Assembly: GCA_951394405.1 (NCBI GenBank)
Contig: OX596340.1
Location: forward strand, 3,534,001 to 3,598,000
DNA length: 64,000 nucleotides
Direction of reading: 5' to 3'
Source of the DNA: Coprinellus micaceus
Taxonomy: Eukaryota > Basidiomycota > Agaricomycetes > Agaricales > Psathyrellaceae
Shown one piece after another: positions 1,911 to 53,476 of the stretch; the first letter of the stretch is position 1, and each line of letters begins with the position of its first letter. Under the pieces are notes generated by a model. That model was not told the origin of the DNA. It saw only the letters and a program-made list of their open reading frames with translations, and ran no database searches. The translations under genes were made by a program, and so were the position numbers.

Positions 1911-2486
1911 CGGGCTCCTCTGATCACGCCACCCGTTATCAGACACCGCGGTAACCGCTCCACTGCCCCTCGATCGCCCATAGCCTACGGCCTCTTCTCG
2001 TGTGATATCTCCACCTGAAGCCTATCTCCCTTCACATTCTCACTATCTTCACTTTCGCTATTTACGTTTCGCTACTTACATTCCACTACCCCTCCTGATA
2101 CTCAGGAGTACATATCAACTTCCATTACCACCTTCTACCCCGCGGCAAGCGTTCCCACTACGGGAAAGAAGCTATCAGGAAGTCCACAGACGCTTACCGT
2201 CTGCAGAATTAGAGTAGTGATCCTTCTTTGAGAGGCCTGATTCGGTTGGACTGGGGAAACGACGCAACGGTAGCGCTCCCTCCATCCAAACGCTTTCAGT
2301 AACCGGTACTCAAAGTGACAGCGGGGTTCCCTCTGCGGATCTTAGTGTAAAACTTCAACTCCTTTTTAGGATATCTACATATTGGTCCGTTTTACCTACA
2401 AAATCACGGGCACTTTACCTATCACCTATCACTTATCGTTTCGTACCTATCATTTTATCCTCTCCCATTCTTTATCACCTACCATC

Positions 2487-5400
2487 ATGGACTCTACCAC
2501 TACGTCCTCGCCCATCATGCTCACGGCCTACACTGTGCAGCAGTGGAAGTTCACTGTCGAGAACAAGGCCTTCGACCTCAACGCCTACGGCATCCTCACT
2601 GGGGAAGAGAAAAAACCTGGGAGCAATGCCGACGACAAGGTCAAGTCCGACTATGCCAGTCGCCGCTCCAAGCTCATCGGCTACGTCCGGTCTACTCTCG
2701 ACCACTCCCAACTCGAGACCGTTCTCTCTGGCATCCAAGTCACCGACATCGCTGCTATCTGGGAGAAGCTCTTGGAAACCTACCAGCCCAAGACTTCCGG
2801 CTCTCGCATCAGTGTCCTTCAGGAGATGATGGCACTCCGAATGAGGTCCTCGGGTTTCGAGAAGGAGACCTACTCCGACTTCGGATCGCGTTGCATGGCA
2901 CACGCCTCACGTCTCACTGCGCTCCTCCCGCAAGGAGCAGAATACCTTCCAGAGACAACACAGACCGTCACCATCTCCTCCCAAACGACATCGGACGGAG
3001 CAACAACGACGATTCAATCCACCAGTCGGGGAGCACATGAACTCCTTACGCCCTCTGCTTTCGAGGAAGGATACACGGCTGCTCATCTCGCGCGCGATCT
3101 TGCAATCAGCATGATCCCCATTGGTCTTGGCAAGAATGACACCATCCTCCGCAATACGCTCAACCACATCTCCACTGGGGACGACAATCCCCTTGAAGTC
3201 CTCGATCACCTTCGCAAGGCCGACTCCCTCGCTCGCAACACTCAGCTTGCTGAGGGGACGTCCGCCGCTCTTCAGGTAGCCACAGCTGCCCCGAAGAAGA
3301 AGGCGAAGTACAGGTGCAAGGTCCACGGTTGGCAGAACACGCATGAGGACAAGGACTGCCGCGTCCAGAACTCCCAGAAGGCCAAGATCGCGGAGACACC
3401 TACCACAGCAGCGACTGCTGAGGAGAGCGTCATGATGGCCAGTGTTGCCCACATCGCAAGTCCCCTTATCCGTCGAGCTCGTAACAACCCCACTAATACT
3501 TCCTGGAACCCAGACTCAGGTGCAACCTCACATATGACACCCAATCGCAAGTGGATCCGTAACATGGTTGCGGTGAAAATTGCTGTGTCTCTCGCCAACA
3601 ACGAGATCGTCTGGGCTACAGGAAAGGGGGAAGTACGTTTCACGCCTCGTATATACGGAAAAGTTGGCCAAACTGTGATATTCAACGATGTACTATATGT
3701 TCCCGCACTTCGCAATAACCTATTCTCAATCCTCTCCGTTGTTAAGAAGAGCAAAATGCGCGTCGTAATTGAAGGAGACTCGCTTGACTTCTTCAAGAAT
3801 GGCGAGCTACTCCTAACAGCTACCATCAACGGAACTGTTGGCTCTCTCAATGGGACAACGCTCGAAAACACGGAAACGGAGGCAGCCTACATCTCCAAGA
3901 TCGAGAAGGAACTATTACATCAGAGGTTAGGGCACATTGGGAAGGACCGTCTGGAGACACTTATGCGCCAAGACTTAGCCACTGGCATCCTGGTGAAGGA
4001 GGGCACGGAACTCAATGACACCTGCGAACACTGCATTGCAGGCAAGCAACATCGGGATCCATTCCCAAAGCTATCAGCGAATCGCTCAACAGAGCTCCTT
4101 GGACGGATTCACTCGGACCTCCATGGACCCCTCGCTGTACAGACACCAATCGGCTATCGATACTGGATCACATTCATTGATGACCACTCACGGTTCAAGG
4201 AGGTCGCCCTCCTGAAACACAAGAGTGACGCATTCCAAGCCTTCAAAGACTTTGTTGCCAAGAGTGAGCGAAAGCTCGGCACAAAGGTCAAGGAACTTCG
4301 TGATGATAAAGGGGGGGAATACATGGGGAACGACTTCATTCAATGGTGCAAGGGACTTGGTATCGCACGGCAACACACAGTTAAAGCCACACCTCAACAG
4401 AACGGTGTCAGCGAACGACTCAATCGCACACTAACTGAAGGGGTCATTGCCATGCTCAACCAAGCACGCCTTCCCATGATGTTCTGGGGTGCAGCTGTAC
4501 TCTATTACACAGACATCCTGAATGCAACCCCATCCTCCACATTATCGAATACTACCTCCTATGAAGTCTGGCATAAAGCAAAGCCCGATCTGTCCATGCA
4601 CCGAGTATTTGGCTGCCGCGTATACGTCCATGTATCGCGCAAGGACCGCAAGAACCTCCAGTCACACACGGAGCCTTGTGTCTTTATCGGCTTTGAACCA
4701 GGCTACAAAGGCTGGAAATGCTACAATCCAGTAACGAAGAAGATCACCATATCCCGGGATGTTATCTTCGCTGAAGGCACCTTCCCTGGTCTCTCGACCG
4801 TAGGGAACGAACAGGCATACACGCCTATAGGCATTAGGGACATCTGGCCAGACGCCAATCTCGAACCGGAGAATCCACCTCTTGCACCACCTCATGCTCC
4901 CATCGCGCCACCACCGCCTCCCCATGACCATCCAGATGATGGATCAGACGAGAGCGACAATGATGACGATGGAGACCAAGCAGCACCTCGGACTCCTGAG
5001 CGACCTCCTAAAACTGAGCCTAAGACGCCAGCCACACAGCAACCGTCTGTCCATCCGTCAATTCCACCTACTCCTACGAAACGGGATCCCTCATCTACTC
5101 CCTCAACGAAACAGCTGCTACCAATACCTGCCTTGTTCCCAGGGCTCCCTGCACCAGCTGAGGATGGACCCATGTTCCCAGAACTACCTCCTCCAGCACC
5201 AGTCGCACCTCCAGCACCTGCCCAGAAACGCACCCGGCCACCTCCCCCTCCCCCTCGCGAATCAATCCCTCGCAAGGCGAAAGTTCCGAAAGCTCCACCG
5301 CTAGTAGCACAAAGCTCCCGGCCCGTACGGAAAACGGCAACGACCGTCAAGGACTACCAACTCGCGAGTGGAAAAGGGAGACGCGGTACAATTCCAGTGG

Positions 5401-7313: not shown

Positions 7314-7330
7314 ATACAGAGACATTACAT

Positions 7331-7340
7331 TGAGGGGGTG
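7331..7340 (+). other. Polypurine tract
   Basis: TGAGGGGGTG directly before the 3' LTR is the expected plus-strand primer for reverse transcription. It is interrupted by one T. Confidence 0.7.
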
Positions 7341-7723
7341 TGTTGGAAGACAATGCTCATGTCAACTCTATCTCTACAAAGAATACCTCTATTTCGAACG
7401 TTTTACTTATCTTCTATTGTTCTACAGAGAACAACAAGCACCTTGTATTATTCCCATTATACTCGCACTTATTGTTCTCTTATCTCCACCTTATCTCCAT
7501 TCACTGCTATTGTTCTCTACTTATGGAACGTCTATTGTTCTTTCCTATTGTTCCGCATATAGGTTATCTATTGTTCTCCACAGTATATAGTCCACACTGT
7601 AAGTGGGTGAGTCCCCATCGAACTCTCCCCACTTACAGGTGCGTATCTTGTATACCCTACTTACTTCCAATCTAACATCGAACTCTCCCCACTTACAGTG
7701 GGTCATACTTGCATCGTTCTACA
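7341..7723 (+). repeat. 3' LTR of the copia element
   Basis: Same length as the 5' LTR, and I see no base difference on reading both; the shadow reading frames in the two LTRs translate identically. The left edge abuts the polypurine tract. Confidence 0.96.
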
Positions 7724-17260: not shown

Positions 17261-17860
17261 AGGCGAGTCGGTAGGGACCCTGCCGAACTCCGATATCATG
17301 AATCCGGGGGTCGGATGCATCCGAACGAAACTTCAGGGATCCGAGTTCAAGTCAGAGCTCTGAGATCTGAAGGCCCGTCTACTGGCGATTGCGATGCGCT
17401 GACGCTCAGAAGCGCAGCCAAACGCTTCCATTAGACTTGGACTCATGTACCAGGATTCTTTCAACGTCATCCAAACGTGAGGGCACCGACACCATCGCAC
17501 TCTGGCTCCACATCCGCAGACATCTTGGCTTCAAGCGCCCGGGAAAGTGCGACGGTGCAGGTATGATGCTCTGGAGTAGGTACTGGGTAGTCATCTTGGA
17601 GAGCCACTCCACTCGTTATGGCTTTTGATCCCTGAGAACTGTGGATCACAGTATGAAGCCATTCCGCGATGATCCACGCTCTGCCACGGCTCCGGTGGTA
17701 GAGTTTGATTTTCATATTCATTACTTGGGTCGGTATTTCGACTCCGCTATAGTGAATTTGGCACGGATGGTCTCCACTAGCATGCTCTCCTGCCCCCCAG
17801 AATGCGCCATAGGTGACTCTCGCAATACCTCATCCGTCTGTATCGGGGGATTCGGATTGC

Positions 17861-17870
17861 ATATATAAGC
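17861..17870 (+). promoter_or_regulatory. TATA box of gene A
   Basis: ATATATAAGC lies about 90 bp before the ATG. The same spacing of TATA to ATG is seen in all five family members. Confidence 0.7.
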
Positions 17871-17956
17871 GCTCACCAGTAGGACCGAGACATCTACTCA
17901 ACTACAAGAACCCTACGTTACCAGAAATACCTCATTAAAACACTCCCAAACCCACC

Positions 17957-18273
17957 ATGAAATTCTTTACTACCCTCAGCTTGATCCTCGCATCTCTCGT
18001 CACGCTCTCGCCTACTGTCATTGCCCAGGACTGCCAAGCTGCCTGTTGCGATGTACTCGTCAAGGGCGCCGACGACTCCAACGTTGGCCGTGAGTACCCG
18101 CCTATTACTATCCCCTTGCGTCAATATTTAAGGGTGCGTGCTTATGATCTCCCCACTAAACAGTGGATTGTACCCCGGGTGGCATCGACTGCACCTTTGG
18201 AGGCCAGGTCAAAGCGTGCTGCGAGACCATTCAAATGAGTGTCCCTTTCCAGGCCTTAGTTAACAAATACTGA
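17957..18273 (+). CDS. Hydrophobin-like eight-Cys family, copy A (truncated, lacks last Cys)
   Basis: Exon 1 17957-18089 encodes a signal peptide (MKFFTTLSLILASLVTLSP..AQ) and the DCQAACC motif. After an intron (18090-18163) exon 2 supplies LDCTPGGIDCTFGGQ and KACCE. In copies C, D and E a second intron follows here, and a 14-codon exon 3 gives the eighth cysteine. In copy A the donor is altered (gtgagtg became caaatgagtg) and the acceptor with the start of exon 3 is deleted. Reading therefore runs on to a TGA at 18271-18273 and yields only seven cysteines. Remnants of exon 3 (GGGTCGGAAAGAAG and GTGCGCTTGCCTGA) remain at about 18277-18315. Its near-identical mirror copy is E. It is probably a decaying gene, though still translatable. 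Confidence 0.75.
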
Positions 18274-19290
18274 AGAAGGGTCGGAAAGAAGGTAGGTAGA
18301 TGTGCGCTTGCCTGAGTGGCCGGCCACGCACGTGAAAGAGATATTGCATTTGATGTTTCCCCGCGGAACCTGCTGTAATGTAGTCGCATGTAGATTGGCG
18401 CGGTAGGAGACTTAAAAATTTGAGCGAGAGATGTGCCAGGCGGACAGTTACAGTGGTCGCTCGAGGTCCTATTTCTCGCAAAGGTCCCGCCCATAGGGGT
18501 GCGGGGTAAGGGCGGGGTGTGTGAAGCGAATGAGGTCCACTTCATTCTCCCTAGGCATAGACATCGAACCGAGGCGCATAGAAGATTGGCGCGATAAAAC
18601 ACTTTCGTCCCCTCGGTAAAGGTTACACCTGACATCAAGTAATTTCCAGTCACACGGGATTGAGTGAAGTGAGTGTGTCAGGAAGCTTCTATTCGCCCAA
18701 GTTCCCGGTTTTAATCGTTGGGTGCATGCGGAGCCTTATTTAAATTACGCTGGCTCCCCATTGGTCCAATACCGCAAGAGAGAGCGTCAGTCGGGGAGTT
18801 TGCGGTGACGAGTAGAAGTATGACACCAATTAAGGGATGTCCGAGCTTTGGGGAGAGACGAAGGCAAATCGCTTCAGTGTCGAGTATCGCCGACAAGACC
18901 AATGTCTCCGGGAAGCGGGAGTCACGAATAGCAGGAGCGCAGTTCAGACCCACAGGCGTAATTCACGTATCCTGACGACTTAGTCTGCCTATCGGGTGCG
19001 GACAGCACAGATTTACCTGCACGAGAGTTGCACACCAATCTGAAGATGCTCCGTCGCCAGTATAGGACGATAGCTCTTCGACCCTCGGGAAGCGAAGCTC
19101 GTACTTTGTTCGCTCGGATCTGACTTTGGGATGTCAACGTCATCGGGAAGCTGCGAATTTCATATTCGTCGCAGTGGCGTCAATGGAACGTTGAGGCAAC
19201 ACACTGACGCTTGTCGCGGTCCCTTTTCGGTCGCACGCGCCTTCAATCCCATCTGCCCAAGGTCTGGAATACGTAATCGGAGGGATGTAG
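18274..19290. other. Duplicated non-coding DNA between copies A and B
   Basis: About 1 kb with no supported gene. Several stretches (18360-18640, 18720-18960, 19050-19200) have inverted counterparts at 36340-37200. A minus-strand frame GLNCAPAI..SRFP.. is shared by both arms, but it carries indels between them and is not conserved as protein beyond a short block. Confidence 0.5.
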
Positions 19291-35963: not shown

Positions 35964-37205
35964 TTGCCAACGTATCCGATACTCACGGACGAGGCTGTAA
36001 CAGAGTTATTTCTGGCCCATTCTTTTGGGACGGGGAGCCATGTCGAGAGCACCATCTTGTCAGTCAGTGGAGTTGGAGCGCCAAGCCGAGTAACATATAT
36101 TAAAGTGGGACAATATACCAATGGCGCAGTGTCAAAGAACCCCAGAGCATCGCGCGGTGGCTCCGGCGTTACGGGCCTCGCAGCTTTATTATCGACAGCA
36201 TAACTATTAACGGGTCGTCTCTGTGCACACACTACTTACTCTAATACGACCCTCTCTAAGATCTTCGTCCCACTCGCCTCGTCCCTACCGCTACCACCTT
36301 TGGTCTCAATTAGTAGTACAAGTACGATGACCCCACATTCGCAGACGCTCTTTGAAAGGCGCAATTGTTCAGTCAATGTTCTCCCGAGGTTTCATTGTCA
36401 CCGCTACGACGAACATGAAATTCGCAACTTCCCGATGACAGTTCAAAGTCAGATCCTAGCGAACTTCGCTTCCCGAGGGTCGAAGAACTGTAGTCCTTAC
36501 TGGAGATGAAGCATCTTTAGGTTGGTGTGTAAATATCTCGCAGGCAAACCTGTTATATCCCCATCAGAATGGGAGAACATGTCGTCAGAGTAGTGAAGTG
36601 AATCACAACTGTGAGTCTGAACTGTGCCCCTGCTATTTATAACTCCCGCTTCCCGGTGACACTGACCTTGTCAACGATTCTCAACACCGAGGCGATTTGC
36701 GATCCCATAATTAGTATGATACTTCTACTCGTCACCGCAAATGCCCCGACTGACACAGTGACACTTACTCTTGCGGTTTTGGATGCATGGGGAGCCAGCG
36801 TAATTGAAATGGGGCTGCACATTCACTCAACGATTACAACCGGGAACTTGGGCGACTAGAAGCTTCCTGGCGCACTCGGGTCACTCAAGCCCGTGTCCCT
36901 GGCAAATACTTGATGTCAGGTGTAACCCTTACGGAGGGACGAAAGTGTTTTATTGAGCCAATTGTCTCTGCACCTTAGTTCAATGTCTATGCCCAGGGAG
37001 CATGAAGTATACCTCATTCGCTTCACAAACCCGCTGTTACCCACGCCCCATGAGCGGGACATTTGCGAGAACCACTACAGCTGTTCACTTGACATACCTC
37101 ATCCTCAAAATTTCAAACCGACTACAGTGCCGAGCTACGTACGACTACATTACAGCAAGTTCCACGTTGAAACATGAAATTAAATCTCTCCTCCACGCGC
37201 GTGAC

Positions 37206-37594
37206 TCAAGCAAGTGCACACTTCTTTCCGACCTTGGTGCGAGAATCCTATCAGGAGGAAACACAAGTTGTGACATTCTTCAGTACTTGTCAACTGAGGG
37301 CCTGGAAAGGGGCACTCACAATGGTCTCGCAACACGCTTTGACCTGGCCTCCAAAGGTGCAGTCGACGCCACCTGGGGTACAATCCACTATTTCGCGGGG
37401 AGATTATAAGCTCGTAGCCTTAAATTTTAACGCAAAGGGACGGTAATAGGCAGATACTCACACCCAACGTCGGAATTGTCGGCACCCTTGACAAGTACAT
37501 TGCAACAGGCAGCTTGACAGTCCTGGGCAACGGCAGTAGACGAGAGCGCGACGACAGATGCGAGGATCAAGCCAAAGGAAGTGAAGGATTTCAT
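37206..37594 (-). CDS. Hydrophobin-like eight-Cys secreted protein, copy E
   Basis: Three exons: 37594-37462, 37387-37320 and 37247-37206. The signal peptide MKSFTSFGLILASVVALSS..AQ is followed by DCQAACC, DCTPGGVDCTFGGQ, KACCET and KVGKKCALA-stop. All eight cysteines are present. This is the intact partner of the damaged copy A, and introns and flanks align base by base with A. It shows what A has lost: a working second intron (37319-37248) and a 14-codon last exon. Confidence 0.85.
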
Positions 37595-37680
37595 GGTTGG
37601 TTTGGGAGTGTTTTAATGAAGTATTTCTGGTGATATAGGGCTCTCGTGATTGGGTAGATGTCTCGGTCCTACTGGCGAGC

Positions 37681-37690
37681 GCTTATATAT
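37681..37690 (-). promoter_or_regulatory. TATA box of gene E
   Basis: ATATATAAGC on the minus strand, about 90 bp before the ATG, identical to that of gene A. Confidence 0.7.
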
Positions 37691-38219
37691 GCCATCCGAA
37701 TCCCCCGATACAGACGGATGAGGTATTGCGAGAGTCACCTATGGTGCATTCTGGGGCGCGGGGGAGCATGCCAGTGGAGACCACCCATGCCAAATTAACT
37801 ATAGTGGAGTGGAAACACCAACCCAAGTAACGAATATGAAAATCAAACTCTCTATCGTCGGAGCGGTGGCATAGAACCATGGATCATCTTAGGGAGTCTC
37901 CGTACCGCGATCCACGGTTCTCAGGGATCAAAAGTCCATAACGGGCGGAGTGGCTCTCCAATACCGTTTCAGCCTTCATCTTCCGAGATGACTACCCAGT
38001 ACCTACTCCAGAATATCGTACTTGTACCACGTACCTTCGAATTTCCTGGGCGCTTGAAACCAAGGTGTCTACGGATGTGGAGCCTGGGTGGATGGCGCGG
38101 TGCCTTCACGTGTGGATGACGTCGAAAGAATTCTGGCAAACAAGTCCAGCTCTAATGGAAACATTTCGCCGCTTGGTCGGTGGATTGTAGAATGGTATTC
38201 CCCCTGTTCCACTGCATGA

Positions 38220-39320: not shown

Positions 39321-39475
39321 TTGAATTGTCCGAAAGTACATAACACTGTCACGGACCCCGATTTTACAATCGCACCTATGGGCGAATTTCGGGGACAAAA
39401 TTGATTGGCACTGGCCCTCATGATGCATGCCCTTGACTTGGGGATATTCACGATGACCACCTGGTCATCGTGAAT
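39321..39475 (+). repeat. Left terminal inverted repeat
   Basis: See the element entry; about 155 bp, ending in a perfect palindrome. It holds the likely promoter of the first gene. Confidence 0.65.
39446..39475. repeat. Perfect 30-bp palindrome
   Basis: ATTCACGATGACCA, CC, then TGGTCATCGTGAAT: 14-base arms with a two-base spacer, located at the inner edge of the left TIR. Only the first half (ATTCACGxTGAC) is conserved in the right TIR. Confidence 0.85.
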
Positions 39476-39628
39476 CAGGGGGGCTGTGCTCGATGCCGAG
39501 TTCAAACGGAGCTTGAATTGAACTCTACGCCCAACGGCTCGGTGCGCACTCCTGGCCACGAACGATTGCCTCCCTCCTCCCCATCTTCTTCGAAACCGCG
39601 CTGGTCGCCTGCGGCAGGGGAGGCCACC

Positions 39629-42281
39629 ATGCCCGAAATTCGGGAATGTTTGGCCTTCTACCTGATAGCCATCGCTTGGTTCCGCCGGGCCCAGGAGGAC
39701 GAGGTGTCCCTCCAGGTAATCAGACTGCATGCAGACGCAGCTGACAGCAACCGGTCAGAGACCATATTGACCCAGGGTGGGCTACCTTATGTCCTGGAGA
39801 ATACCTCCACAGTCATGAGGGGAAACTCCGGCCACCAATATGCTCTCTTTCCCCCTGCCCTTGCTCGCACTGCAGCCAACCCCAACCCACCCAGCCTCAG
39901 CACGTATCATCTCTTTGCCATTGACCGAACCATGCGGTCTTTGATTCTTGGGTTCAAGCAGAATAATGAGGATGGAGGAAGGGTTTTGTACGCCAAGGTG
40001 CGCCCAACAGCACTCATCTCCATCCTTGTGCTCATTCTGTTTCTTGCCTTGAGGTGGCGTACCTAACACACACATGTCTCCAAATATACACGGCGGCTCA
40101 GTGGGAAGTTATGCGGACGACGCCCAAGTCATCCTCGCAGAAGAAAACGGAACTTGGACGTGCAAGGATCGGCCTGGGAATCGAGCTCTCTACCCACACC
40201 ATCGCCTTCATCACCCTCGACAATCTCTTTGAGGTGAGTTATGACTTTGTGACTGGCATCCTGAGGTCTCGAAGTCCAAACACTGTTTCATCAGGTCGCC
40301 TGGAAGGAATCCAAGGAAGAACTCCCCAAGCTCTATGTGGGTGTCGATGACTATCCGGCATTTCTGGAAGCGGTCGTAGAGTGGTTAAAGGCACGGCCCA
40401 ACCGAGGGCGCTACACCCGCTTTGCTCGGGACGCCATACAGGACTCGCAGGATACATTTCATGGGGTGGGTGTGTACACGGTCAACGAGCTGTTTTTTGA
40501 TGCAGGTAAGCAGCCCCTGTGTTGACATGGGACGCTGGTGTACTCACCCATCTATCCCAGGAATACCACCATTCATTTCCGAGGCTGAGCTGACAGATTG
40601 TCCGTCGCGGATGGCCCGTCTATGCGAGGCTCTCTGGTCGTATGCGCATGTATCAACACTTAATCTCCCGTACGTGTCTACCCTCCTTGCCCACCTGCCC
40701 CGCTAATCTTCATATTGGCACTACAGAAAGCTTCTTAGCCCAGCCATGGCCCAGGGAGTCCTTGCTCCGACCAAAGAACACCGGCGTAGATATGTTCACT
40801 GGTTGCACGTTCATGCCAGAGACTACTGCCGTATGCCTGTTCGCATGGCCGAGCTGCTCGAGGACTTCAATGTTAGTAAATTTATTTATTTCTACTCCTT
40901 CTACTAGGCTTGCTTACCGTTGAGTACAGAGTATTCTTAGAGATCATGTCGGAGATATAGAGTGGTTTAGATTGCACGAGAAGCGACTCTATGACATCTT
41001 CGACCCTTATTACATCCGTTTTGCTCTCTTTCCACCCAAGGATCTAGCTGAAAGCAAGCCCACTCTTGGGCACTTGATCTTCCCTCTAGAAGATCATGCT
41101 AGTATCCTTGGTAACTTTGAGAAGCCTACCGACCCTCTTACGGTCCACTTTGAAGAAAATGGTGCGCCTGCTTCATACCATCTCTCCCATCTCAAGCGCG
41201 GCAGCTCACAATTTAGCAGGCAAATATGGTGCAGCACCAACCTTGCTCAAACCTGGGCACTACATTGAAGAAGGAATTGTCGGTGCTGCTCATCGCAACC
41301 GCGTAAAGCGGCCTGTTCACGCCTACAGAGTCGGCAAGCAGGCATGGTCTGGGACACCTGATTACGGGTCCAACTGTAAGTTTTCACCACAAAACCCAGG
41401 ACCGTAAGTCATATGTTCGCCATTTTAAATAGTCCCTATGCTCAACTTCCATTACAGAGACTCATCCAAGATTGCGACCTTGACAGGGCCGCTACGTGAA
41501 TCCAAACTCTTTCTTAACATCATCGAACAGAAGAAACAAGTCGCCGTAGGACCCCTCGAGTATTCTGCAAATGCAAGCCAGGCGATGTCGACACATGGGG
41601 TCAAGATGTATGTGCATCCTCAAACAAGCCTGACTCTAGATCGCGCTGACCAGACCTCTTGTTAGGGTTCACCCCTTGCGCGGTGCTGATTACCACCAGA
41701 CACTGTCTTTCCATCGAGCTGCCACCTCCTCCACTAGCTCCCTTATTGTGTTCCCAGACAACGGAGATGAAGACGACGACGACGATCAAACCTCCACCTT
41801 CAACTTTCACACCGACCCCCCTTCCCCCTCCTCTAGCAACTACCCTCCGACCGATGTCGATTACACATCATCCAGTGCTTACGACTCCTATCTCTCAGAC
41901 ACCGATGCCTTGTTCGCTCACCCTATTCCTTCAACATCCACGTCTATCTCTCCACCTCAAGTCGACCATTCACTCCGCTCTCCCCCACGAAAGAAAACCA
42001 AGGTAAACTACCGATATAAATCAAGAACGTATACGAACACAAACAAGTCAACACTGCTGGAGGCGAATTCAATTCTGCAGGATTTCACAGAGTTGGCCAA
42101 CCCACTGGACTCTGAGCCAGACGATGAAGCACCTCCCCTCAAGCGGAAGCGAAGTTCCCGGAACACCACTGCCAATTACTGCTTCAGTGCCCGAGGCAAT
42201 GCAATGGATCCAAACAGGGAGAAGCCAAAACCAAAACGTCGAGACAAGTCGAAGGGAGCAACGTCTTCAGAAGGAGGGTAG
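39629..42281 (+). CDS. Element gene 1: unknown protein with acidic/basic tail
   Basis: Nine exons: 39629-39997, 40102-40233, 40295-40505, 40561-40669, 40727-40871, 40930-41161, 41220-41375, 41433-41660 and 41719-42281. They join in phase to 714 residues. The start has an ideal context (gccaccATGc). If the last intron is not used, the protein ends at 41665 after 528 residues. No signal peptide. Visible features: a central domain with YVHWLHVHARDYC and RLYDIFDPYYIRFALFPP, and a C-terminal low-complexity tail with an acidic D-run (GDEDDDDDQ), serines, and basic clusters such as PPRKKTKV and LKRKRSS that look like nuclear localisation signals. I do not recognise a family. Its position, inward from the TIR, suggests an element protein, perhaps DNA-binding. 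The end lies 80 bp before the 160-bp repeat array. Confidence 0.65.
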
Positions 42282-42363
42282 AACAACATTTCTGATATAT
42301 CTTTGTAACTTTTGTAGCTTAAATATACGCTTTGCCTGTGACACCTGTCCCAATGCATGAAGG

Positions 42364-42750
42364 GGTACCACCAGGAGCAGACACCGGAATTCCACCGGTT
42401 TGGGAAGGTTCCCCCTTGGGTGGATGGCCCCTACACACCCCAATATTATCCCTTAGTTTGTATCCGAGGCCTCCCACAATTCCTGGTTGGTTCTCCACAC
42501 CCCAATTCAACAAGAGTGTGCGAGGTACCACCGGGAGCGGACACCAGAGTTCCACCGGTTTGGGGAGGTTCCCCCTCGGGTGGGTGGCCCCTACGCACCC
42601 CAGTATGATCCCTGAGTTCATTCCAAAGGCCTCCCACAATTCCTGGTTGGTTCTCCGCACCCCAACTCAACAAGAGTGTGCGAGGTACCACCAGGAGCGG
42701 ACACCGGAGTTCCACCGGTTTGGGGAGGTTCCCCCTCAACTGGATATGTT
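42364..42750 (+). repeat. 160-bp tandem repeat array, left (about 2.4 units)
   Basis: Units begin at GGTACCACC at 42364, 42524 and 42684, giving a period of exactly 160 bp. Each holds CACCGGTTTGGGGAGGTTCC and CTCCCACAATTCCTGGTTGG. The same unit occurs in reverse orientation at 47752-48606. Confidence 0.95.
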
Positions 42751-43848
42751 CATGTCCTGCCCAGTGCACTCATGTTACATCTTGGGCCTCAAATGAGTGT
42801 GAGGATCTTTAGCAAGTGTCCAAGCAAGCCCATGGATCAGGGACATTTCTAAACCCGGCCTTACAAGGACCGGACCATCAGCTCTCCCTCTTTTGTCGCA
42901 ACACCAAGCATTTGGAGATGGACCCGGATTCCCAACGCACTCGTCCTACAAGCAACTCCCGCATTGAGCTTATGTGGCTACTAACACACATGCATCTTGC
43001 GTGGAGCGACATCGTGCAAGTAAGTGTTGTTGCTACGGTTTGCAAGCAAGGCGCTTACCATGGGGTGACGGTTAGCGCCACTACCACAGAAGGCTTCTAG
43101 ATGGAGCACATAGGCCCATTCGTAGACCTCACCCAAGCAGCCGCAGGCTTTATTATGTCGGTCCACCCCAAGATGTTTGGCGGCATCCAGAGCATGAGGA
43201 GGCAGGGTGAATTTGCATACCACTCATTTTCAGAATTGAAAACTGATTCCCTTTATCTGTGATCGCTCAAGTACGAGGGATACCCAGTCATAAAAACCCT
43301 GTTGATGCCTTGAACATTCTGTTGAGGATGTACGGGGCCAGGTGCTGAGGGTGGGGGCCTATAGAAACAAAACATGCCATGCCGGGGGTTGGGGAGTGGG
43401 GCTTACACCTTGTGCAGGCAGCGTCTAAAGTAGTATAATAGTATACATGATACATGAACTACGGTGCTAATCACATTTCTGGTTAGAATTCCGTACTCCA
43501 GCACAACAGTAATATTGGTAATGTCTGAGGTATGAGGAGGGCAAGGTACTAAACCACCACCGTTATGCGTGGGGGTTTCCTCCATTTGCGTTGTGCTGAG
43601 GGATGCGGAGGGGTGGGGCACGTCAGGTCAATCACAAGGTGGGTGTTATAGTACAGTGCGAGCAGGCAGCAGTCTGCAGATGGTGCTGTCGGTGGTTCAA
43701 GGAGGGATAGTGGAGGAGGGGCGGACTTCTTCAACACGATGCCACTGTGAGACCCAGAGCAGTACTAGTCATGTGCATGTCATGTGACTTGGCGCTGGGC
43801 GTCAGAAAGTTACGCATTCACAGATGCAATCCTTCCTACCTTCGAACC
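42751..43848. other. Spacer inside the element, no supported gene
   Basis: About 1.1 kb between the left array and the integrase gene; no frame with recognisable content. It should contain the integrase promoter. Confidence 0.4.
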
Positions 43849-45716
43849 ATGTCCACTATACTTGATAATCTCCGCTCAGCCTGGGTCGTTCTCAATGAAC
43901 GTGTTGGTGTGGCTCTCCGAACTCGCCTTGGTGATGTCCAACATCTGCAGCACCACCTTAACGATACCGCACAGTTTGTACGGTCGGTTGAACAGGTACT
44001 TGGAACCTTTCTGTTCCTCTGAAAACTAACTGACAGACTGGGATCAACGATAGCACCGAGGACAAATGAGCGACCCAGAATACAGATTCATTGTCGGTCA
44101 AGCCGCCTCCATGACCGATACCCTGGAACAAGCCAAAGTGTTGTCGCCGGATCCATACTATGGTCCACCAGCCACTGTCAAAACAGTGACTCGTAGCGGG
44201 AAGCGTGGCAGGCCGAAGATCGACATTGACCCTGTATTTCTTGCGTACTCGTTGAGTCTTCGGGGCCCCAGCAAACTTGCTTCCATCTTGGCATGCAGCT
44301 CAAAGACGATCCGGCGGAGGGCGCTGGAGCACCAGCTGGTAGAGCCTTGCCCTGTTCCTGTTTACCAGGCATTTGAACAGGGAGATGGGACTGTGCAAGA
44401 GATATGGACGTCAGTTGGTCCTCCAATTTCGACGCTCAATGACAACCCTCAGCAGCTGGATCAAGTAGTGCGGCAGATTCTCGATGCATCCCCAGACTAT
44501 GGAAGGGAGATGCTGTATGGTGCACTGCGGGGGATGGGGCATAGGGTGACAAGGGAAAAGATTGGAGCATCATATCTTCGGGTTCATGGAGCTCCCCCAA
44601 CATTCGGAAGGCGGAGGATTGAGAGGCGCCAATACTGGGTGCCAGGCGTCAATTCACTCTGGCACCACGATGGACACCATGGTATGTTCTCAGGTTTAGT
44701 CCCATCTTCCGTTATATTATCATCATCTAATTCCTTGCTCAAATCTAGCCTTGATTAGATGGAAATTTGTCACCCACGCCTTCATTGACGGCCGCAGCCG
44801 CTTTGTTACGTCGCTTCGAATCAGCACTAACAATCGCGCCGACACTGTACTGGGAGTATTCATGGAGGGAGTGACGAAGAACGGCCTGCCCAGCAGAGTG
44901 TGCGGTGATCACGGCACCGAGAACGTCCTGGTTGCTTCGTATATGCTCCGTGCTCGAGGACTTAACCGGGGTTCTTATATCTTTGGGAAGTCTGTGCACA
45001 ACGTTCGTATCGAGCGTTTGTGGGTCGACTATTACGTCGGATTTGGACAGACATGGTACCTGTTCTTTCATGACCTTGAACTCTACAACGGCCTTGACAA
45101 CGAGAACCCAAACCACATTTGGCTCCTGCACCACCTTTTCCTTGCCGCGATGAACAGCAGCGCACAGACTTGGGTCAATACCTGGAATATGCACGCTCTC
45201 CGCACCGAGAAGAATCGAAGCCCGAGGGACCTGTACTTCTTTGGGCTGGTTGAAGACGGTACTCGTGGAATTGGAACCTTCCCAATCGAGGGGGAAGATG
45301 GCTCTCTGGCCCTTCAAACGTTTGGTGGGGATTGGCTTGGATTGCTTCATGCCAATACACGGAGTACAAGCGATGAAGATGCAGGTGTTGACTACCACGA
45401 GCTTGGTATCGACTGGGAATTTCTTCACAATCGCCGCATGATGGACGACTACTACCAGCGCCACCCGAATGACCTGGGAGAGGATGCGGTCAATGTCGCA
45501 CCAAACCCTTTCTCAAGTACCGACACACGGCCGGCTCATCTCAGCGAGGTACTTTGCGAGGCTCCAAACTCCCCATTTACCCCAGAAAGTATTGCATGGC
45601 TTGATAATGAGCTACTGCGCTCCTTTGGGATGGAATTACAGGTCACATCCATGCACCGGCGTAGAGAGATATGGACGTACGCCCTATCGCTATGCGAGTA
45701 CTTGGCAAGATTGTAG
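43849..45716 (+). CDS. DD34E rve-type integrase/transposase
   Basis: Three exons (43849-43995, 44054-44681 and 44749-45716) give 580 residues. The N-terminal part (1-75) is helical. Next comes a basic GKRGRPKI segment and a helix-turn-helix-like stretch ([20 protein letters not shown]), then [20 protein letters not shown]. The catalytic core follows: D in [11 protein letters not shown] in VCGDHGTEN and, after 34 residues, E in [11 protein letters not shown]. The core begins [21 protein letters not shown] know this signature from a eukaryotic DDE integrase family seen in DNA transposons of animals and fungi, possibly the IS3EU group; that name is uncertain. All three acidic residues are present and the gene is unbroken. 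It is expected to cut and join the ends of the element. After the core, about 200 residues of unknown function contain the acidic [12 protein letters not shown] and end in [20 protein letters not shown]. Confidence 0.88.
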
Positions 45717-46021
45717 TTTCTTCCTCTCCAATCTGCATACTCCTTTTTTCATCTTTCCCACTCTTGTCCACAGACGTAGCCCCTCAACCTGGTATGTATT
45801 TAACCCTATCGATCCCCAGCCTTAGGCCATTTTGAATCTTGAACAGTGCTGCGGCCACGATCTGCCGGCACATGTCCAAGGCTTTTCGCACCTGCCTGTG
45901 TCTCACCCACTCCAACAATCTCACATATCAAGGCTGCCTTTCCTCTGCTCGCCCAGATTCTTATTTCCATAGCCCACTCACCTGTTCCGTTCCCGGCACC
46001 TTTCGCCTGTCAGCCCCACAT

Positions 46022-47601
46022 ATGTCTTCGGAGCAGAATACCTCAGGAAGCCATGGCCATGGTGACTCAAAAGGTACGTATCTTTGGCGTGCTATCTCCA
46101 GAGTTTAAGGCTTGATGATTTCGACAGAGTCGTTCGTGGTTGAGGGGTCTGGCCGCTCTGGCCTGCCTGTCCAGCCCGGCTCATTCCTTGAAGCATTCAA
46201 GAAATCTACCTATAAGTCCGTTATGGGCGAGCCACTCTATAACGTGCCTCAGGTACCAACCACTCTGGAGCAGACTGAAACCATTCTTGGGGAGTTGGGT
46301 CTGTCTGCTGCCTCACCGGGACAGACACTATTGCCTTGTACGTACACTTAGTGGTTCTCAATTGTCCTAAGCTGAAGTGCTGGAAAGATGAAGCCGAAGC
46401 GCCTTGTGTTCTCAATGTCGGTTACGAGCTCGATAATCAATCCCGTACATGCAAGATAATCAAGATCGAAAGGATGAAGACAAATCCAGGGCCGTGTTTG
46501 GGAGAAGTTCTGGATGCGCTTGTTGATCCAGCAGAGGGCCACCGAGCATGGTTCACCCCTGACGAGCTTCGCTTTGCTGACAAGATATCTGCATTGATGC
46601 AAGATGGCGGCAGCGACATCACTATCCTTACCTCCACCGATCCCTGGCCCATTACTTCTGACCGTTATCGAAAAGCTGGGAGTCCGTTCGCTCCGCTTGC
46701 CCCCCTTCATACCGTCAGTATTCCCCGAGAAGACCATGTCGACTCAATCAAGAGTGTTCCTCCTGCGGAGCCAACTTCTGCAAGGGCAACTGCCTTGCGG
46801 CGGGAGAATGGAATCGATGCTACTCTTCCTATTTATACTCTCTACTTCGTCAAAAATGTGAGCCTGACACCGATTAGCCATGACACCCACCGTCACTCAC
46901 ACCATGCTAGAATCTTCTTCCCCCTCAAATGCAGATCCCTCAATCCCATGGGGAAGCCGCTAATAGTAGTGCTGAGGAGGCCCAAGACAATGACAATGCT
47001 CCAGGTCGAGAAGAAGCGGTGGACAGCGGTGGCCCACTTCCATCTATCCAGGCCGAAGACGATGGGTCCTCAGAGAATGTGAGTCTTGTGGTTAGGCCTG
47101 ACGCCCTATGGCACCAATGCTAAAGTTTGGGCTTAGACTGTGCGAACCTGCAGGAAGCTCTGGGCCGCATACCCTGGAGAATATGAGCTGATTCAAAAGT
47201 GCCAGCAGCATCCAGATGGCGCTCTGAAGTGGGCACTGGTATACAACTTCATTCAGGCCGTGAGATTGCTCACTAACGGGAGTGTGGATGGAGACACCGT
47301 TGAAACTAGCACCATCTTTTCCTCTATGCCACGCAAGACCCTATCTCTGGCCACGTACCGCAACGTCAGGGCTTGCATGCGGAGGGCTCAGAGGTTGGTG
47401 CAGGTTGCACGGCCATCCACTCTGCAGGCTGGCTACGCCGCCAACCTGGATCTCATCGCGGAGTTGGCTACAATCAGGAACCCAGAGGTTGCTTCATCAA
47501 GGGCCCAGGCACTAGAGATAGTTACATTCAAGTCTATGATACAGACCTTGGAAGGTGTGGTCCTTACCTCCACGTCAACGGGTAATCGTAGTGTAGCTTA
47601 G
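46022..47601 (+). CDS. Element gene 3: unknown protein
   Basis: Five exons: 46022-46073, 46128-46337, 46388-46857, 46935-47078 and 47137-47601. They give 446 residues, with all phases closing. The second intron (46338-46387, gtacgt...aaag) is the least certain. The ATG at 46022 is the first in the frame after the integrase gene, 305 bp downstream on the same strand. The protein is soluble-looking: an S/G/H-rich start (MSSEQNTSGSHGHGDSK), a middle domain with PCLGEVLDALVDPAEGHRAW, an acidic linker (EEAQDNDNAPGREEAVD), and a helical C-terminal domain (KLWAAYPGEYELIQKCQQ, MPRKTLSLATYRNVRACMRR). I do not recognise a family. It is likely an accessory protein of the element. Confidence 0.62.
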
Positions 47602-47751
47602 ATCACTGGGCTCACAGCGTTCATTATGTTTCTCTACCAGTGCGAACCTTCAAACACAGATTTTGAATGACTGTTACTTGAATCTTCTGTGGGAGATGGG
47701 ACGTATCACACCTGGCATTATATTCAAGTGCCCAAAGCTGACCATCTGAGG

Positions 47752-48606
47752 GAAACCTTCCCAAACCGGTAGAATTCTGATGTCCGCTCCCGGTGGCACC
47801 TCGCACACTCTTGTTGGATCAGGGTGCGGAGAACCAACCAGGAATTGTGGGAGGCCTCGGATACGAGCTCAGGGATCATATTGGGGTGCGTAGGGGCTAC
47901 CCACCCGAGGGGGAACCTTCCCAAACCGGTGGAACTCCAGTGTCCGCTCCCGGTGGTACCTCGCACACTCTTGTTGGATTGGGGTGCGGAGAACCAACCA
48001 GGAATTGTCGGAGGCCTTTGGAATGAACTCAGGGATTATATTGGGGTGCGTAGGGGCCATCCACCCGAGGGGGAACCTTCCCAAACCTGTAGAACTCCGA
48101 TGTCCGCTCCCGTGGTACCTCGCACACTCTTGTTGAATTGGGGTGCGGAGAACCAACCAGGAATTGTGGGAGGCCTCGGATACGAGCTCAGGGACTATAT
48201 TGGGGTGGGTAGGGGCTATCCACCCGAGGGGGAACCTCCCCAAACCGGTGGAACTCCAGTGTCCGCTCCCGGTGGTACCTCGCACACTCTTGTTGAATTG
48301 GGGTGTGGAGAACCAACCAGGAATGGTGGGAAGCCTTTGGAATGAACTCAGGGATTATATTGGGGTGCGTAGGGGCTACCCACCCAAGGGGGAACCTCCC
48401 CAAACCGGTGGAACTCCGATGTCCGCTCCTGGTGGTACCTCGCACACTCTTGTTGGATTAGGGTGCGGAGAACCAACCAGGAATTGTGGGAGGCCTTGGA
48501 TACGAGCTCAGGGACTATATTGGGGTGCGTAGGGGCTACCCACCCGAGGGGGAACCTTCCCAAACCGGTGGAACTCCAGTGTCCGCTCCTGGTGGTACCT
48601 CACACA
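47752..48606 (-). repeat. 160-bp tandem repeat array, right (about 5.4 units, inverted)
   Basis: GGTGGTACC (or one-base variants) recurs near 47792, 47952, 48112, 48271, 48431 and 48591. This is the reverse complement of the unit at 42364. Units are 90% or more alike by eye. Together with the left array it brackets the integrase gene and gene 3. Confidence 0.95.
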
Positions 48607-48744
48607 CAGCATGGCGGGAGTGGCGGGACTGGGAGGCTGGGAGAGACCTTTGGAGCTTAGAAAGGAAGAGGTACCAGGTTTATCATTACTGCCAGGGGTG
48701 TCAGGAATCTACAACTATGAAGGTACACAATGCAAAAACAAGTC

Positions 48745-51700
48745 CTAAACGCGAGTATAGCCCTCTTGGGACGAAAGTAACGATTGGTGCACAAAGGTGT
48801 CAAAGAAGGATGTATGTGATTCCTCCTCGTAATGGCTGACCTCATTCAGCATCTCCTTGAGCACCGAGTTAAGGTAGAAAACGAGTTGGTTTGTACAGGT
48901 TTGGATGGTGCAGATTGGCTCCGTTTCACCGACATGCATCAAGTCGTCTGGGGCCTTTATAGTAATCTGGATGTATCCTATGTCAGCGAAGACACGAATC
49001 TGGTATCCCATGAAACTACCCACCCTGAATACAAGACTGTCGGGGATGCGTATTGTCTGGTAAGATGATAACGCCCGTACAAGCATAAGCGCCCTGGTGA
49101 GCTTGTTGCCCCTTTCAGCCTTATATGCAGACCGAGTGACCAAACCCTGCATCATTAGGGACCAGGGGTGACCCTCTCCACAAAGCCATCGAATGAAATG
49201 CTGCATCAACAGCATCGAGTACAGCCGCCCTTCCTTCTGATCTTGCTTGTACTGAGTCTCGAAGTGGACGTGCTTCAGGAGCATCTCGATGTGCTGAAAG
49301 CCCAGTGAGTATAGAGCCTTGACAAAGTCGTATGGGGCAAGATTGCCCAATATCTAGAAGGAATGTGAGAGGATTTCTTCAGCAGTGTATACCCGGCTTA
49401 CACTTTGATCAAACAGGTATGTACGTGGTCGAGTTCCGGTCCCTTCAGAGAGGGGGAGACGTACCCCCTCGACTAGCCCTCGGAAACATGCATGCTCCCA
49501 AGGCAGGAGGAAGGTAAAGCCAAGAAACATCTTGCAGATGAACATGAAAAGCATCTCTCGCTGCTCTTCCTTCGTTCGAGGGCTAGCAAGAGGATTCTGA
49601 AACAATATGAGCAGCAGCCCTCTCTCCTGAGTAGAGTTGACGTACCGGTGTTTCAAAAGCCAACGAAAGGTATGTTACAAGCTCATCCCCTTCCCGGAGC
49701 ACCTTGTGAGGCGGCAACTGCTCAAGACGAAAGAGAAGCTTGGCTGCCTCTGGATCTAGCGGCTCGACATTGTCGGAGGTGACGCTGAAGACGACATTTC
49801 TAACCACGGTTTCCATGAACTGATCGCGAGCTGCTTCGACCTGCTGATTGGTAGCACCAGATGGAGGGTTGAAGTCGGAGAGGGCGCTTGCACAGGCGAC
49901 AAGAATGAACAAAGTCATAGGGTTTAGGATGGAAGAGGGAACACCCCTTCTTGTTGTAAAGATGGCAAGGGCTGCAGCATCGGCCTTGAATGCGAGGGAA
50001 GTCACGCTAGAGTTACGATTAAGTTGGTTCAAAACTGGCACCATGCATTTGTCTCCAAGTAGGGCAGGAGTCCAGCGGCGAGAGGAAGGTTCAAATACCA
50101 CCTTCTCAAGCTCCTCGATCAGGCTGTTTAGAGGTCCAACTCCAAATGCCCGGTTCGTTCTAAAGGGACATTAGCCACACTAAAGAATGGAATAAGGCAG
50201 TGAATACTTGCCGACATTCAAGTGGCCCAAACGACGAGAGAAGCATGTAGAGCTTGGGAGGTCTGCTGAGCTTGACAACAACCTCTACCTTGTCACCGTC
50301 GGCATGGTCAAAGGGGTCGCCAAAGTCTTGGACAAGGTGCTTAACAAAGGATAAGAACTCCCTTGCTCCACCCTCAATACTACCGAGCTCTTTACACATG
50401 AACTTGATAGAACCGCCAACGAAAGGCACAGTAGTTGAGACCTTGGAAGCCCATGCCTGCAATTCGCCGTTGCTCCCACGCCTTTGCTGAAGAAGTCCAG
50501 CCGTACCTGTACCTGAAGATGAAGAGAAAAGCGACAGAACATCAGGGAGCCGCTCATCCAGGTCAGAATCATCGCCGTTGGGGGTGGGCCTGGTGGTCGG
50601 GATATTGGCAACAGCACGGGGGGTTGACAGAGTGGCGTCTGCAGGCTGAAAGGGCGGGGAGTGCAGGCCAGGGCCTGGGAAAGGCTCTACGTCTTCCATA
50701 GGCTAATGGCGTCCGGTCATGTCTTAGAATAGAGCAATAGAAGAAGAAGACATTAGAGCTGACCTCATCGACTAGCTGATGGTCATCATCATAGAACGGC
50801 AACACAGGACTGGAGGAGCGGCTCCAGAATCGGGGTTGCTCAATGTTGTCAACATCCCGGTCAATATCATCAACATCCTGGTCAATATCATCAACATCCT
50901 GGTCCACCCGCACGGGAGTAGGGGTAGTAGGAGGAGAGATAGAGTGGCGGGGGCGGACCCGGCGTCTTGGCGGTGATGGGGTGACAGGGACGGGTCGACG
51001 AAGTGGACCAACATGGGCAGGATCCTGGAAGGGTTATTGAAATCTGATAGAATGAACATTCAAAAAAGTGCGTACCACAGGAGCAGTGGGGTTCACTCCA
51101 TCAGGCGGACGCTGCAAAGCTTGTTCCTCCTCCAAGCGTATGGGACAAGTGGGGAGTGGGCACCGGAAAACACCCATGCGGACGTCCTCCTCCAGGGCTT
51201 CATCTTCATACTCCTCTGGAAGCTCGGGCTTCAACGTGGGTAGAAGGTGACCACAGACGTGAAGGGCCCAGCACTCCCATGGACTCCCATTGTACAGTCG
51301 CTGTAGATGGCGGGTCCGGGGCGCTGAAAACAAAGAGAGTTAAATACGTGATTGGAAGACAGGCGAGCAAGGTTGACCTACGCATGATCAACACCCTACG
51401 GTTAGGGTCAGTTGGGTGCAGGAAGGTACTTGAGCAGTGCATAAGATGCTCTCTGTTGAAGGTGGAATGATGAAAGGTCGTGAGCCTCAAGTCCTTTGAA
51501 TCAATGTGTCCTGTATGCTTCTGCCTGCCAGGCTTGGGCTCCCCGAGGCTGAAGGGGAAATTGTTCAAGTTGATGGGGATGGGTCCATTCTCCGGCTGAA
51601 GCATGCATTCAGCAAAGCTGACGATGTCCTCTCCAGCACAGAACCGAGCGGGGAGGGGAACCTTAATCTGGCTCCTGAAGAGCGCATTGTTGACAGTGGC

Positions 51701-53035
51701 GATAAAGTGGTTGGGATCGTAGTGCGAGGCCAGTGTCTCCCACGAGATCACCAAGCCATTTTTCTTGAACACCCGATGGATGGAGGCAATGTCGGATTGA
51801 CTGAGGGAGATGGGCACAGAAGGGCCGTTGAAACTGTCTTCTATCCGCGTCCACTGCTTATCGGGCTGCATCAAGTCCATGTAAGCGCATGTAGGGGCAG
51901 AAGAGGACGATGTTGTACATACACTTGCTGGTGGAATGAGGAGATCCCAGAGGTCTATTTGCTCGACCGGCGGTCCGGGCTGCAGCGGAACCCCAGGGTG
52001 CATTGGCATCATCCCAGCAACACCAGGATACATTGGCTGAAGTCCGTGCATCGTTTGGCTTGTGGCAGGTAAGTTAAAACCCTTTTTGCGTATGCGTGCT
52101 CCCTGCCGATGCCTCTCAGCACCAGTCATCCTGAGGTGGTGAGTGACGGTCCGCCGAGCCTGAGATTGAGATTGGGCAGGAGCAGGATTATAGTTGGGTG
52201 GATAGTTGGGTGGAGTGATGAAAGGCTGGAACTCCTGAGTCACAGTCTGGGGCGGCGCACCATAACCCTGGAATTGCTGGAGGCCAGGTGGAGGTGGGGG
52301 AGGGGGGGGTACAGGCACACCGCCTGGCGCTCCCCATCCCATCGTCCCATATGCTCCGAAGGGAAGGGTTTGCTGAGGGAGCTGGTCATGGTTGATAGCG
52401 GAATGTCCGTAGTGGTGATAGTAGGGATTGTATGCAATTCCAGACTGTTGAGCGTACTGTTGAGCGTACTGGGGCGGAATAGCGAGGTGATGAGGGCCGG
52501 TGAACAAGCCTGGAGGAGGTGGAAGGTGGTTGGACTGAGAAGGGGGAGGAGGAAGTCCTGGAGGTGCGGTGATGCCAGGTGGGGGTGGAAGTCCTGGCGG
52601 GCCCGAGCCAATGTCTGCTCGATTGGTGGCGGCTAAGTTGACGCCTGCAAACTCCTGCGTCGGCTGCCGCTGGTGAGTCTGATCAGGCTGTGCTGCTGGG
52701 AGAGCCGGGGGAACCTCCCGGGATTGAGCAGGGGCCATCGTGCTAGCCCCTTCGGCATTTGTGGCCCCAGGTTGAGGCTGCGTCTGGGTGAACATCGGGC
52801 TGCCAATGAAAGGTCCAAACGTCGCTCCATGAGTAATCGCCTGGCTTGGGGCAGGTGCGGTGGGCTGATTTGGGCCTTGCTGATACTGAGACCCAAAGCC
52901 GCCAACAGGGTGTTGGGTCGCGGAGGCGGAAAACGGGAGTTGGGAAAGGTACTGAGTCCCATTATTGCCAGGCTCGTGCTGGCCAGTGGGACGCCCATAG
53001 AACGGAGGCCCACCGAATCCGGAGAAGGTGGACAT
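48745..53035 (-). CDS. Element gene 4: very large unknown protein with proline-rich N-terminus
   Basis: Seven exons: 53035-51382, 51323-51076, 51024-50764, 50702-50212, 50159-49646, 49596-49402 and 49353-48745. They join in phase to 1323 residues. One intron (50211-50160) has a GC donor (gcaagt...tttag). Residues 1-350 are P/Q/G/Y-rich with PPPPPG runs, prion-like in composition. A globular part begins at about 380 (QIDLWDLLIPP). Three tandem DQDVDDI-like repeats follow near residue 665. The last 600 residues look globular and helical, with SVTSDNVEPLDPEAAKLLFR, LPWEHACFRGLVEG and GFQHIEMLLKHVHFETQ. No signal peptide, membrane helix or known catalytic motif. It is transcribed inward from the right TIR, about 300 bp inside it. 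I do not recognise the family; the size and low-complexity head suggest a structural or regulatory element protein. Confidence 0.68.
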
Positions 53036-53339
53036 GGCTTTTATGAGAAGCTGGTTGCTGGAAGGGATCCGAAGGTTGCTAGAGTGCTGTAGCCTATAGA
53101 ACTTGCGGAGGAGAGCTTGCAAGGCGAGGCCAAATTTTCGAACACTCGTCGCGCTGGCACACGCGGAACCAGCTTGAGTCCCCGATCATCTCTCCGACGC
53201 CCCCTCAATGGTGCCGGCCGTCCTTGGCATAGGGGCGTTCCAACCGATTCACGGTAGGCGGGCCAAAGTGCATAGTGCTCGGGACAAGAAAGCGCCCATG
53301 CATTTCCGCGTATCAATACATCCACGCGGTGTCAGCGTG

Positions 53340-53476
53340 AATATTACCCAAATCGGGAATTGTCACTGTGGTAAATACATAGCAATCCGATCATGGTAAA
53401 TGCTAATTATTTTTGTCCCAAAAATCCTGCCATACGCACCCGCACTTGTAACTACAAACTATCGTACAATTGAAAC
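53340..53476 (-). repeat. Right terminal inverted repeat
   Basis: The reverse complement begins TTCAATTGTACGATAGT and carries GGGACAAAAATAATTAGCA and ATATTCACGCTGAC in the order of the left TIR, with about 20 extra bases between blocks. Confidence 0.6.

Follow-up and report, generated by a model that had tools for sequence, protein, structure and literature searches.

A probable IS3EU-type transposon of Coprinellus micaceus with a predicted Fpg/Nei/NEIL-fold protein, a candidate anti-silencing factor

Introduction

What kind of mobile element combines a DDE integrase gene with three multi-exon partner genes, and what could the partners do for it? The question is raised by a locus of the agaric Coprinellus micaceus (assembly GCA_951394405.1, contig OX596340.1). 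The locus lies in a 64,000-nucleotide (nt) stretch, positions 3,534,001–3,598,000 of the forward strand, which is the whole stretch analysed here and is called the window. Coordinates are those of the window unless preceded by a contig label (C1–C12, the contigs of the genome searched). A preliminary description of the window had proposed a large, undescribed kind of integrase element at 39321–53476. The element is a DNA transposon bounded by terminal inverted repeats (TIRs) and a 6-bp duplication, with borders shifted from that proposal. We propose, with a probability of about 50%, that it is an IS3EU-type-ended transposon carrying a predicted Fpg/Nei/NEIL-fold glycosylase, encoded by gene A, that likely excises modified cytosines and lets the element escape silencing.

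Results

Ends and target-site duplication

The transposon spans 39377–53434 (14,058 bp), as given by direct reading of the region and local alignment. Each TIR is flanked by one copy of the target-site duplication (TSD):

39371–39376, no strand: left TSD CGCACC, a perfect 6-bp direct repeat abutting the TIR
39377–39410, plus strand: left TIR, starting TATGG, 26 of 34 positions identical to the right end
53401–53434, minus strand: right TIR, ending CCATA, in a 34-nt ungapped alignment with the left end
53435–53440, no strand: right TSD CGCACC, found by direct reading and by script

The sequence left of gene A was aligned with the reverse complement of the sequence right of gene C. The alignment yielded a single best match, TATGGGCGAATTTCGGGGACAAAATTGATTGGCA versus TATGGCAGGATTTTTGGGACAAAAATAATTAGCA, with 26/34 identical positions and no gap, and the borders 39377 and 53434 were set from it. 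A script scoring every 24-nt pair between the two stretches places the best inverted match exactly at these borders, flush with the 6-bp repeat; the outer 24 nt of the TIRs are identical at 19 positions. The diverged TIRs of the preliminary description are thus present, but not at the borders it gave.

The TIR similarity alone is borderline with respect to shuffled sequence. Somewhere in 22 of 4,000 shuffled pairs a 19/24 match is attained, and over four search spaces of different sizes, 0, 1, 3, and 42 of 300 shuffles attain the alignment score. A rougher null of real window segments attains 19/24 in 42 of 2,891 segment pairs. Combined with a flush 6-bp repeat, a TIR of at least 15/24 occurs in 29 of 4,000 shuffles, and one of at least 17/24 in none of 4,000 dinucleotide-preserving shuffles. 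The real-segment null (2,891 pairs) contains a flush repeat at 4 position pairs with 19/24 and at 38 with 15/24. These hits are perhaps repeats; dispersed repeats are abundant in the window.

From 53438 onwards, 333 bp of the right flank have a similar counterpart (about 78%) on the same contig, at a distance of about 73 kb (C7:3659971–3660155). The similarity starts inside the target duplication, as expected for an insertion junction. The right flank is part of a dispersed repeat.

The preliminary description had suggested looking for copies elsewhere in the genome, and a DNA search of the genome with the integrase, the arrays described below, and both ends finds none. An end pattern built from both ends, and therefore fitting both, has no further site in the 50.3-Mb genome at up to 2 mismatches; at 3 mismatches there are 2 sites, equal to the control count of 2. 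Around the other loci described below, no TATGG-type ends with flush 6-bp TSDs passed, and a looser TA..TA scan gave weak candidates only, on C10, C12, C6, and C9.

Gene content and paired arrays

The element contains four genes and two tandem arrays:

39629–42281, plus strand: gene A, 9 exons, 731 residues, with a Met-Pro-Glu (MPE) N terminus and an acidic/basic C-terminal tail; predicted Fpg/Nei/NEIL-fold DNA glycosylase
42364–42746, plus strand: tandem array of about 2.4 copies of a 160-bp unit, beyond the 3' end of gene A
43849–45716, plus strand: integrase/transposase gene, 3 exons, 580 residues, PF24764, DD34E
46022–47601, plus strand: gene B, 5 exons, 446 residues; no relative found in this genome, Pfam, NCBIfam, or PDB
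47750–48607, minus strand: tandem array of about 5.4 copies of the 160-bp unit, inverted relative to the left array, beyond the 3' end of gene C
48745–53035, minus strand: gene C, 7 exons, one GC-AG intron, 1323 residues, with a proline-rich N-terminal third; no relative found

The four multi-exon gene models are open, with 20 introns and no stop codon or frameshift, in agreement with the earlier claim of three intact genes besides the integrase. All introns are GT-AG except the GC-AG intron of gene C. Intron 1 of gene A was corrected by its Coprinellus homologue P0121, and the models of genes B and C rest solely on frame and splice signals. Gene A, the integrase gene, and gene B are read forward in this order, and gene C is read in reverse (53035–48745). 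The two terminal genes face inward, as had been noticed, but start 252 nt (gene A) and 399 nt (gene C) from the element ends instead of 150–310.

The partners had been called unclassified. This holds for genes B and C, but gene A has a recognizable predicted fold. The full-length gene C protein has no match in Pfam or in the stretches fetched around related loci of this genome. Its residues 420–1167 of 1323 retrieve nothing at E 0.001 from a large protein database, and its C-terminal 538 residues match nothing in this genome or NCBIfam and give one chance-level match in the PDB.

The arms of the two arrays are 92% complementary over 383 nt. A genome search that skipped very common words finds no match to the 160-bp unit elsewhere, and folding of three 149-nt pieces of the arrays is no better than that of shuffles. 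The unit is near nucleosome length and was detected inside this element only.

The integrase and superfamily placement

The integrase matches PF24764 with an E-value of 9e-63 in Pfam. Its catalytic triad consists of D255, D312, and E347, with 34 residues separating the last two. This bears out the complete DD34E integrase gene of the preliminary description. All 52 aligned sequences share this triad without exception; they comprise the query and 51 homologues picked from 120 listed of 417. A structure model of the integrase has a predicted local distance difference test (pLDDT) score of 81, and its predicted fold finds its best match in retroviral intasomes.

IS3EU elements have TA..TA termini and a TSD of usually 6 bp (PMC10045372). 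Those of rust fungi have 6-bp TSDs, TIRs longer than 30 bp, and ends of the form TAYGG..CCRTA (Kojima 2025, PMC12730594). The element here has TATGG/CCATA termini, a flush 6-bp CGCACC duplication, a 34-nt TIR, and a DDE integrase-type transposase, and is very probably of the IS3EU type. The features used for this assignment are the ends, the duplication, and the class of the transposase. With ends and TSD matching the rust signature (PMC12730594), the element is not of an undescribed kind as first suggested. It is a multi-gene member of a known superfamily, and its novelty lies in the cargo rather than in the kind of transposon.

The closest comparison is with the rust IS3EU elements that carry TET/JBP and alpha-kinase genes between their ends (PMC12730594). 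Both have the same form of ends, a TIR of more than 30 bp, a 6-bp TSD, extra genes including one acting on DNA bases (as predicted here), and partner genes in opposite orientations. In contrast, the element here shows no TET/JBP or alpha-kinase domain in Pfam and carries a predicted Fpg/Nei/NEIL-fold protein instead; it also has two genes without known relatives, inverted 160-bp arrays, and an agaric host. It is thus not assigned to the TET-carrying fungal IS3EU subset. The genome does contain alpha-kinase matches, at C7:2829281 and C11:136479, both well away from the element. With IS3EU/GingerRoot elements in general it shares TA..TA termini, the usual 6-bp TSD, and an integrase-related transposase, but differs in gene content.

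Two other identities were considered and rejected. Ginger1 has TGTNR termini and a 4-bp TSD (PMC2836005), as opposed to TATGG ends and 6 bp here. Polinton/Maverick elements are alike in size class, 6-bp TSD, and integrase, but the TIRs here are short and start with TATGG, and Pfam detects no polymerase B, ATPase, protease, or capsid domain in the four proteins. The preliminary description had likewise held that the element is not a Maverick.

Gene A has a predicted Fpg/Nei/NEIL fold

The first lead to the nature of gene A was a weak NCBIfam match of P0121 to endonuclease VIII (E 0.025). The seven best Foldseek matches of a low-confidence gene A structure model are all Fpg/Nei/NEIL glycosylases, and a second aligner lists 50 entries that are likewise all of this kind. 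A profile of the gene A family matches Fpg/Nei above shuffled controls. The similarity of the family to MutM and Nei of E. coli, each compared as one sequence, is too weak to be informative, Pfam returns chance-level names only, and the profile gives one chance-level match among PDB sequences.

Two sequence features can be read directly. The MPE N terminus (Pro2-Glu3) is present in gene A, in 6/8 rows of the family alignment, and in both additional genomic copies that were read (C1 and C12). Of the rows without it, P0124 is N-terminally short, and P0127 is fused and cut at residue 641. In addition, gene A contains an H2TH-like motif with G(V/I)G and AG. As regards the C-terminal zinc or zincless finger of the superfamily, many rows of the VIA-align output extend to model residues 495–499, close to the conserved VGPLEY, in a part with pLDDT below 50. 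On models and profiles, gene A is highly likely to have the Fpg/Nei/NEIL fold.

Gene A resembles NEIL1, Nei, and Fpg (MutM) in predicted fold, Met-Pro-Glu start, and H2TH-like motif. It differs from them in its size of 731 residues with inserts and a long tail, in two replacements, Lys to Arg and Asn to Val, in falling below Pfam detection, and in being transposon-borne. Because of the two replacements, the name Fpg/Nei/NEIL-fold protein is used here, and gene A is not classed with the Fpg, Nei, or NEIL enzymes.

Relatives of gene A and the integrase

The gene A family has seven database members, all named hypothetical or uncharacterized protein. One of them, P0127 of Fomitopsis serialis (1195 residues), is a predicted protein combining a domain of the gene A family with a Plavaka transposase domain. 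It resembles the present case in that the family is joined to a transposase, and differs in that the transposase belongs to another superfamily and the joining may be a gene-model artefact. P0127 may be a real fusion or merged models of neighbouring genes; either way, it links the family to a second transposon superfamily.

In this genome, gene A and its relatives occur at five loci (window, C1, C12, C6, and C8). The integrase core PF24764 occurs at seven, the window included, and two more loci on C12 and C11 hold N-terminal integrase pieces only. An integrase piece lies within 7 kb of gene A at three of its five loci: in the window, on C1, where the matched pieces are about 0.9 kb apart and tail to tail, and on C12, where the link is weaker, some 5 kb separating a gene A copy from an N-terminal piece. 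The genes lying apart, which the preliminary description would have taken as evidence against a single element, is therefore seen in part, at C6 and C8. Conversely, of the seven integrase loci seen with 3 kb or more of flanking sequence on each side, three contain gene A (window, C1, and C12). The integrase loci C9:2806086 and C11:1715742 show no gene A in flanks of about 1.3–1.5 kb.

Several further observations concern these loci. On C8, two gene A fragments flank a Helitron Rep/PIF1 gene (L056, L035; C8:3062787–3073116). Open reading frames (ORFs) beside the integrase loci on C2, C1, C10, and C12 belong to no explanatory Pfam family except CxC6 on C10 and a sub-threshold HTH_7, the latter in the ORF preceding the C1 integrase core. 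The C10 match (L052:548–1447) is a KDZ transposase-associated CxC6 cysteine cluster about 4.5 kb from the integrase relative. On the minus strand of C2 (L046:94–1871), two overlapping ORFs without a Pfam family point toward the integrase relative. They are perhaps one two-exon gene, and perhaps another IS3EU partner gene.

Other features of the window

A long terminal repeat (LTR) retroelement, presumably Copia-like by its motifs, occupies 1514–7723. Its two 385-bp direct repeats are 100% identical and it contains a single 1647-residue open gag-pol frame (2370–7313), so it is probably a young insertion. A 1.8-kb inverted pair with 77% identity lies at 17414–19189 and 36389–38172, with further diverged pieces nearby, in a region composed of dispersed repeats.

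Discussion

A proposed role for gene A

The integrase would bring the TATGG ends together, cleave them, and insert them into the target with a 6-bp stagger. The gene A product, possibly directed to the nucleus by its basic tail, would act on DNA bases and may keep catalysis through its N-terminal Pro2-Glu3. Its substrate would be a methylcytosine derivative, probably one with an oxidised methyl group, rather than ordinary oxidative damage. Once the modified cytosine is excised, plain cytosine would be put back by base-excision repair, which would let the element escape silencing.

Methylcytosine derivatives have been published for Coprinopsis and Laccaria. The TET/JBP genes of rust IS3EU elements are read by their author as an escape from silencing (PMC12730594), and human NEIL1 is reported to excise 5-carboxylcytosine (PMC5566547). 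The most economical reading of these facts is that the present element contributes excision to the escape route served by TET/JBP in the rusts. The anti-silencing role by itself is judged somewhat less likely than not.

A number of points weigh against the proposal. With regard to the fold, the Foldseek E-values are 6e-3 and above, and the model is weak, with a mean pLDDT of 44 and an alignment of seven sequences. The protein was modelled with 16 residues missing owing to a wrong intron, and not as the 731-residue version. The profile signal lies mostly in the H2TH stretch, the score falling to 21 when residues 225–285 are masked, and one of eight family members, P0123, fails to beat reversed controls. 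Gene A matches none of the Pfam families of the Fpg/Nei/NEIL fold. With regard to catalysis, the active-site lysine of Fpg/Nei (Lys57 in Fpg and Lys53 in Nei) is an arginine in 6/8 rows, P0122 having a gap and P0127 not being alignable. The asparagine of the H2TH GxGN motif is a valine in all eight rows, and the fused Fomitopsis row lacks the MPE start. Judged from these sequences, the activity of gene A may be altered or lost.

With regard to the element, no TET/JBP or alpha-kinase Pfam domain is present in genes A, B, and C or the integrase. No gene A relative is found at C2, C10, C8:2040424, and C9:2923108, four of the seven integrase loci with flanks of at least 3 kb. No second copy with TATGG..CCATA ends, as a sign of recent movement, was found in the genome. 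No empty site was found either: the joined flanks match the similar C7 place through the right flank only, and with the left flank unmatched that place is not an empty site. Finally, the mode of action of NEIL1 is called debated (PMC5566547), and a potential thymine DNA glycosylase gene is predicted in C. cinerea (PMC8889193), so gene A need not be the sole candidate.

Alternative explanations

An active gene A glycosylase unrelated to methylation might serve transposition or repair directly, either by cleaning oxidised bases or by trimming abasic sites and flaps at the gaps left by excision and insertion. Proteins of the Fpg/Nei/NEIL fold are chiefly known for the excision of oxidised bases and for abasic-site (AP) lyase action, and both the retained MPE and the linkage of gene A to integrases on C1 and C12 would suit such a role. 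The host, however, already has a canonical H2TH-domain gene (C2:2734077), other DNA transposons to our knowledge manage without a glycosylase gene, and an extra gene of rust IS3EU elements is read as anti-methylation (PMC12730594). We consider this direct role unlikely.

The replacement of Lys by Arg and of Asn by Val at conserved positions, together with the inserts and the diverged sequence of the family, would also suit a catalytically altered or dead protein that partners the integrase by binding DNA, for instance to hold or bend the ends. The N-terminal MPE is known for its use in catalysis. Its retention in 6/8 database rows and in 2/2 further genomic copies that were read, the exceptions being short (P0124) or fused (P0127), makes a purely binding role quite unlikely.

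Nesting would explain the symmetry of the locus, with an inner 6.2-kb unit (integrase and gene B, 42364–48607, between the arrays) inserted into older sequence containing genes A and C. The arrays are 92% complementary and symmetric around the integrase and gene B, a 5-bp GCATG lies flush at the array borders (42360/48608), and a 6-bp GGTACC lies inside the array. However, 1,260 border offsets were tried, enough for roughly one chance match of 5 bp, and GGTACC belongs to the array itself. Genes A and C are enclosed by the TATGG ends and the 6-bp TSD that suit the integrase class, and gene A relatives occur near integrase pieces elsewhere in the genome. Nesting is therefore very improbable.

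That the TIRs and the duplication are coincidental and the four genes ordinary neighbours in a repeat-rich region is extremely improbable: the TIR similarity alone is weak and the real-segment null does yield 19/24 and 15/24 matches with flush repeats, perhaps from repeats, but no shuffle in 4,000 attains 17/24 with a flush 6-bp repeat, both ends fit the published IS3EU signature (PMC12730594), and the right-flank similarity starts at 53438, inside the duplication.

Implications

At the level of titles and the openings of abstracts, with subscription papers mostly outside coverage, literature searches turned up no Fpg/Nei-type gene on a fungal transposon. Within the same scope, the gene content of this element, paired 160-bp arrays, and a fungal transposon with a predicted glycosylase fold were not found in print.

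The base-removal step of demethylation had not yet been found in fungi according to a 2022 paper (PMC8889193). A broader and speculative view, which we regard as somewhat unlikely, is that fungal transposons carry both arms of demethylation: the published TET/JBP oxidases and a NEIL-fold glycosylase. The latter would be passed among superfamilies (IS3EU, Plavaka, and beside a Helitron) as TET/JBP is, and would be the missing fungal excision enzyme.

The family profile of gene A could allow the recognition of members so far named hypothetical or uncharacterized, and one of the three partner genes of a large IS3EU element gains a first functional handle. The NEIL-fold gene on transposons offers a concrete, clonable candidate for the fungal base-removal step. 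If the proposal is true, a transposon arms itself against silencing with an enzyme of the DNA-repair type.

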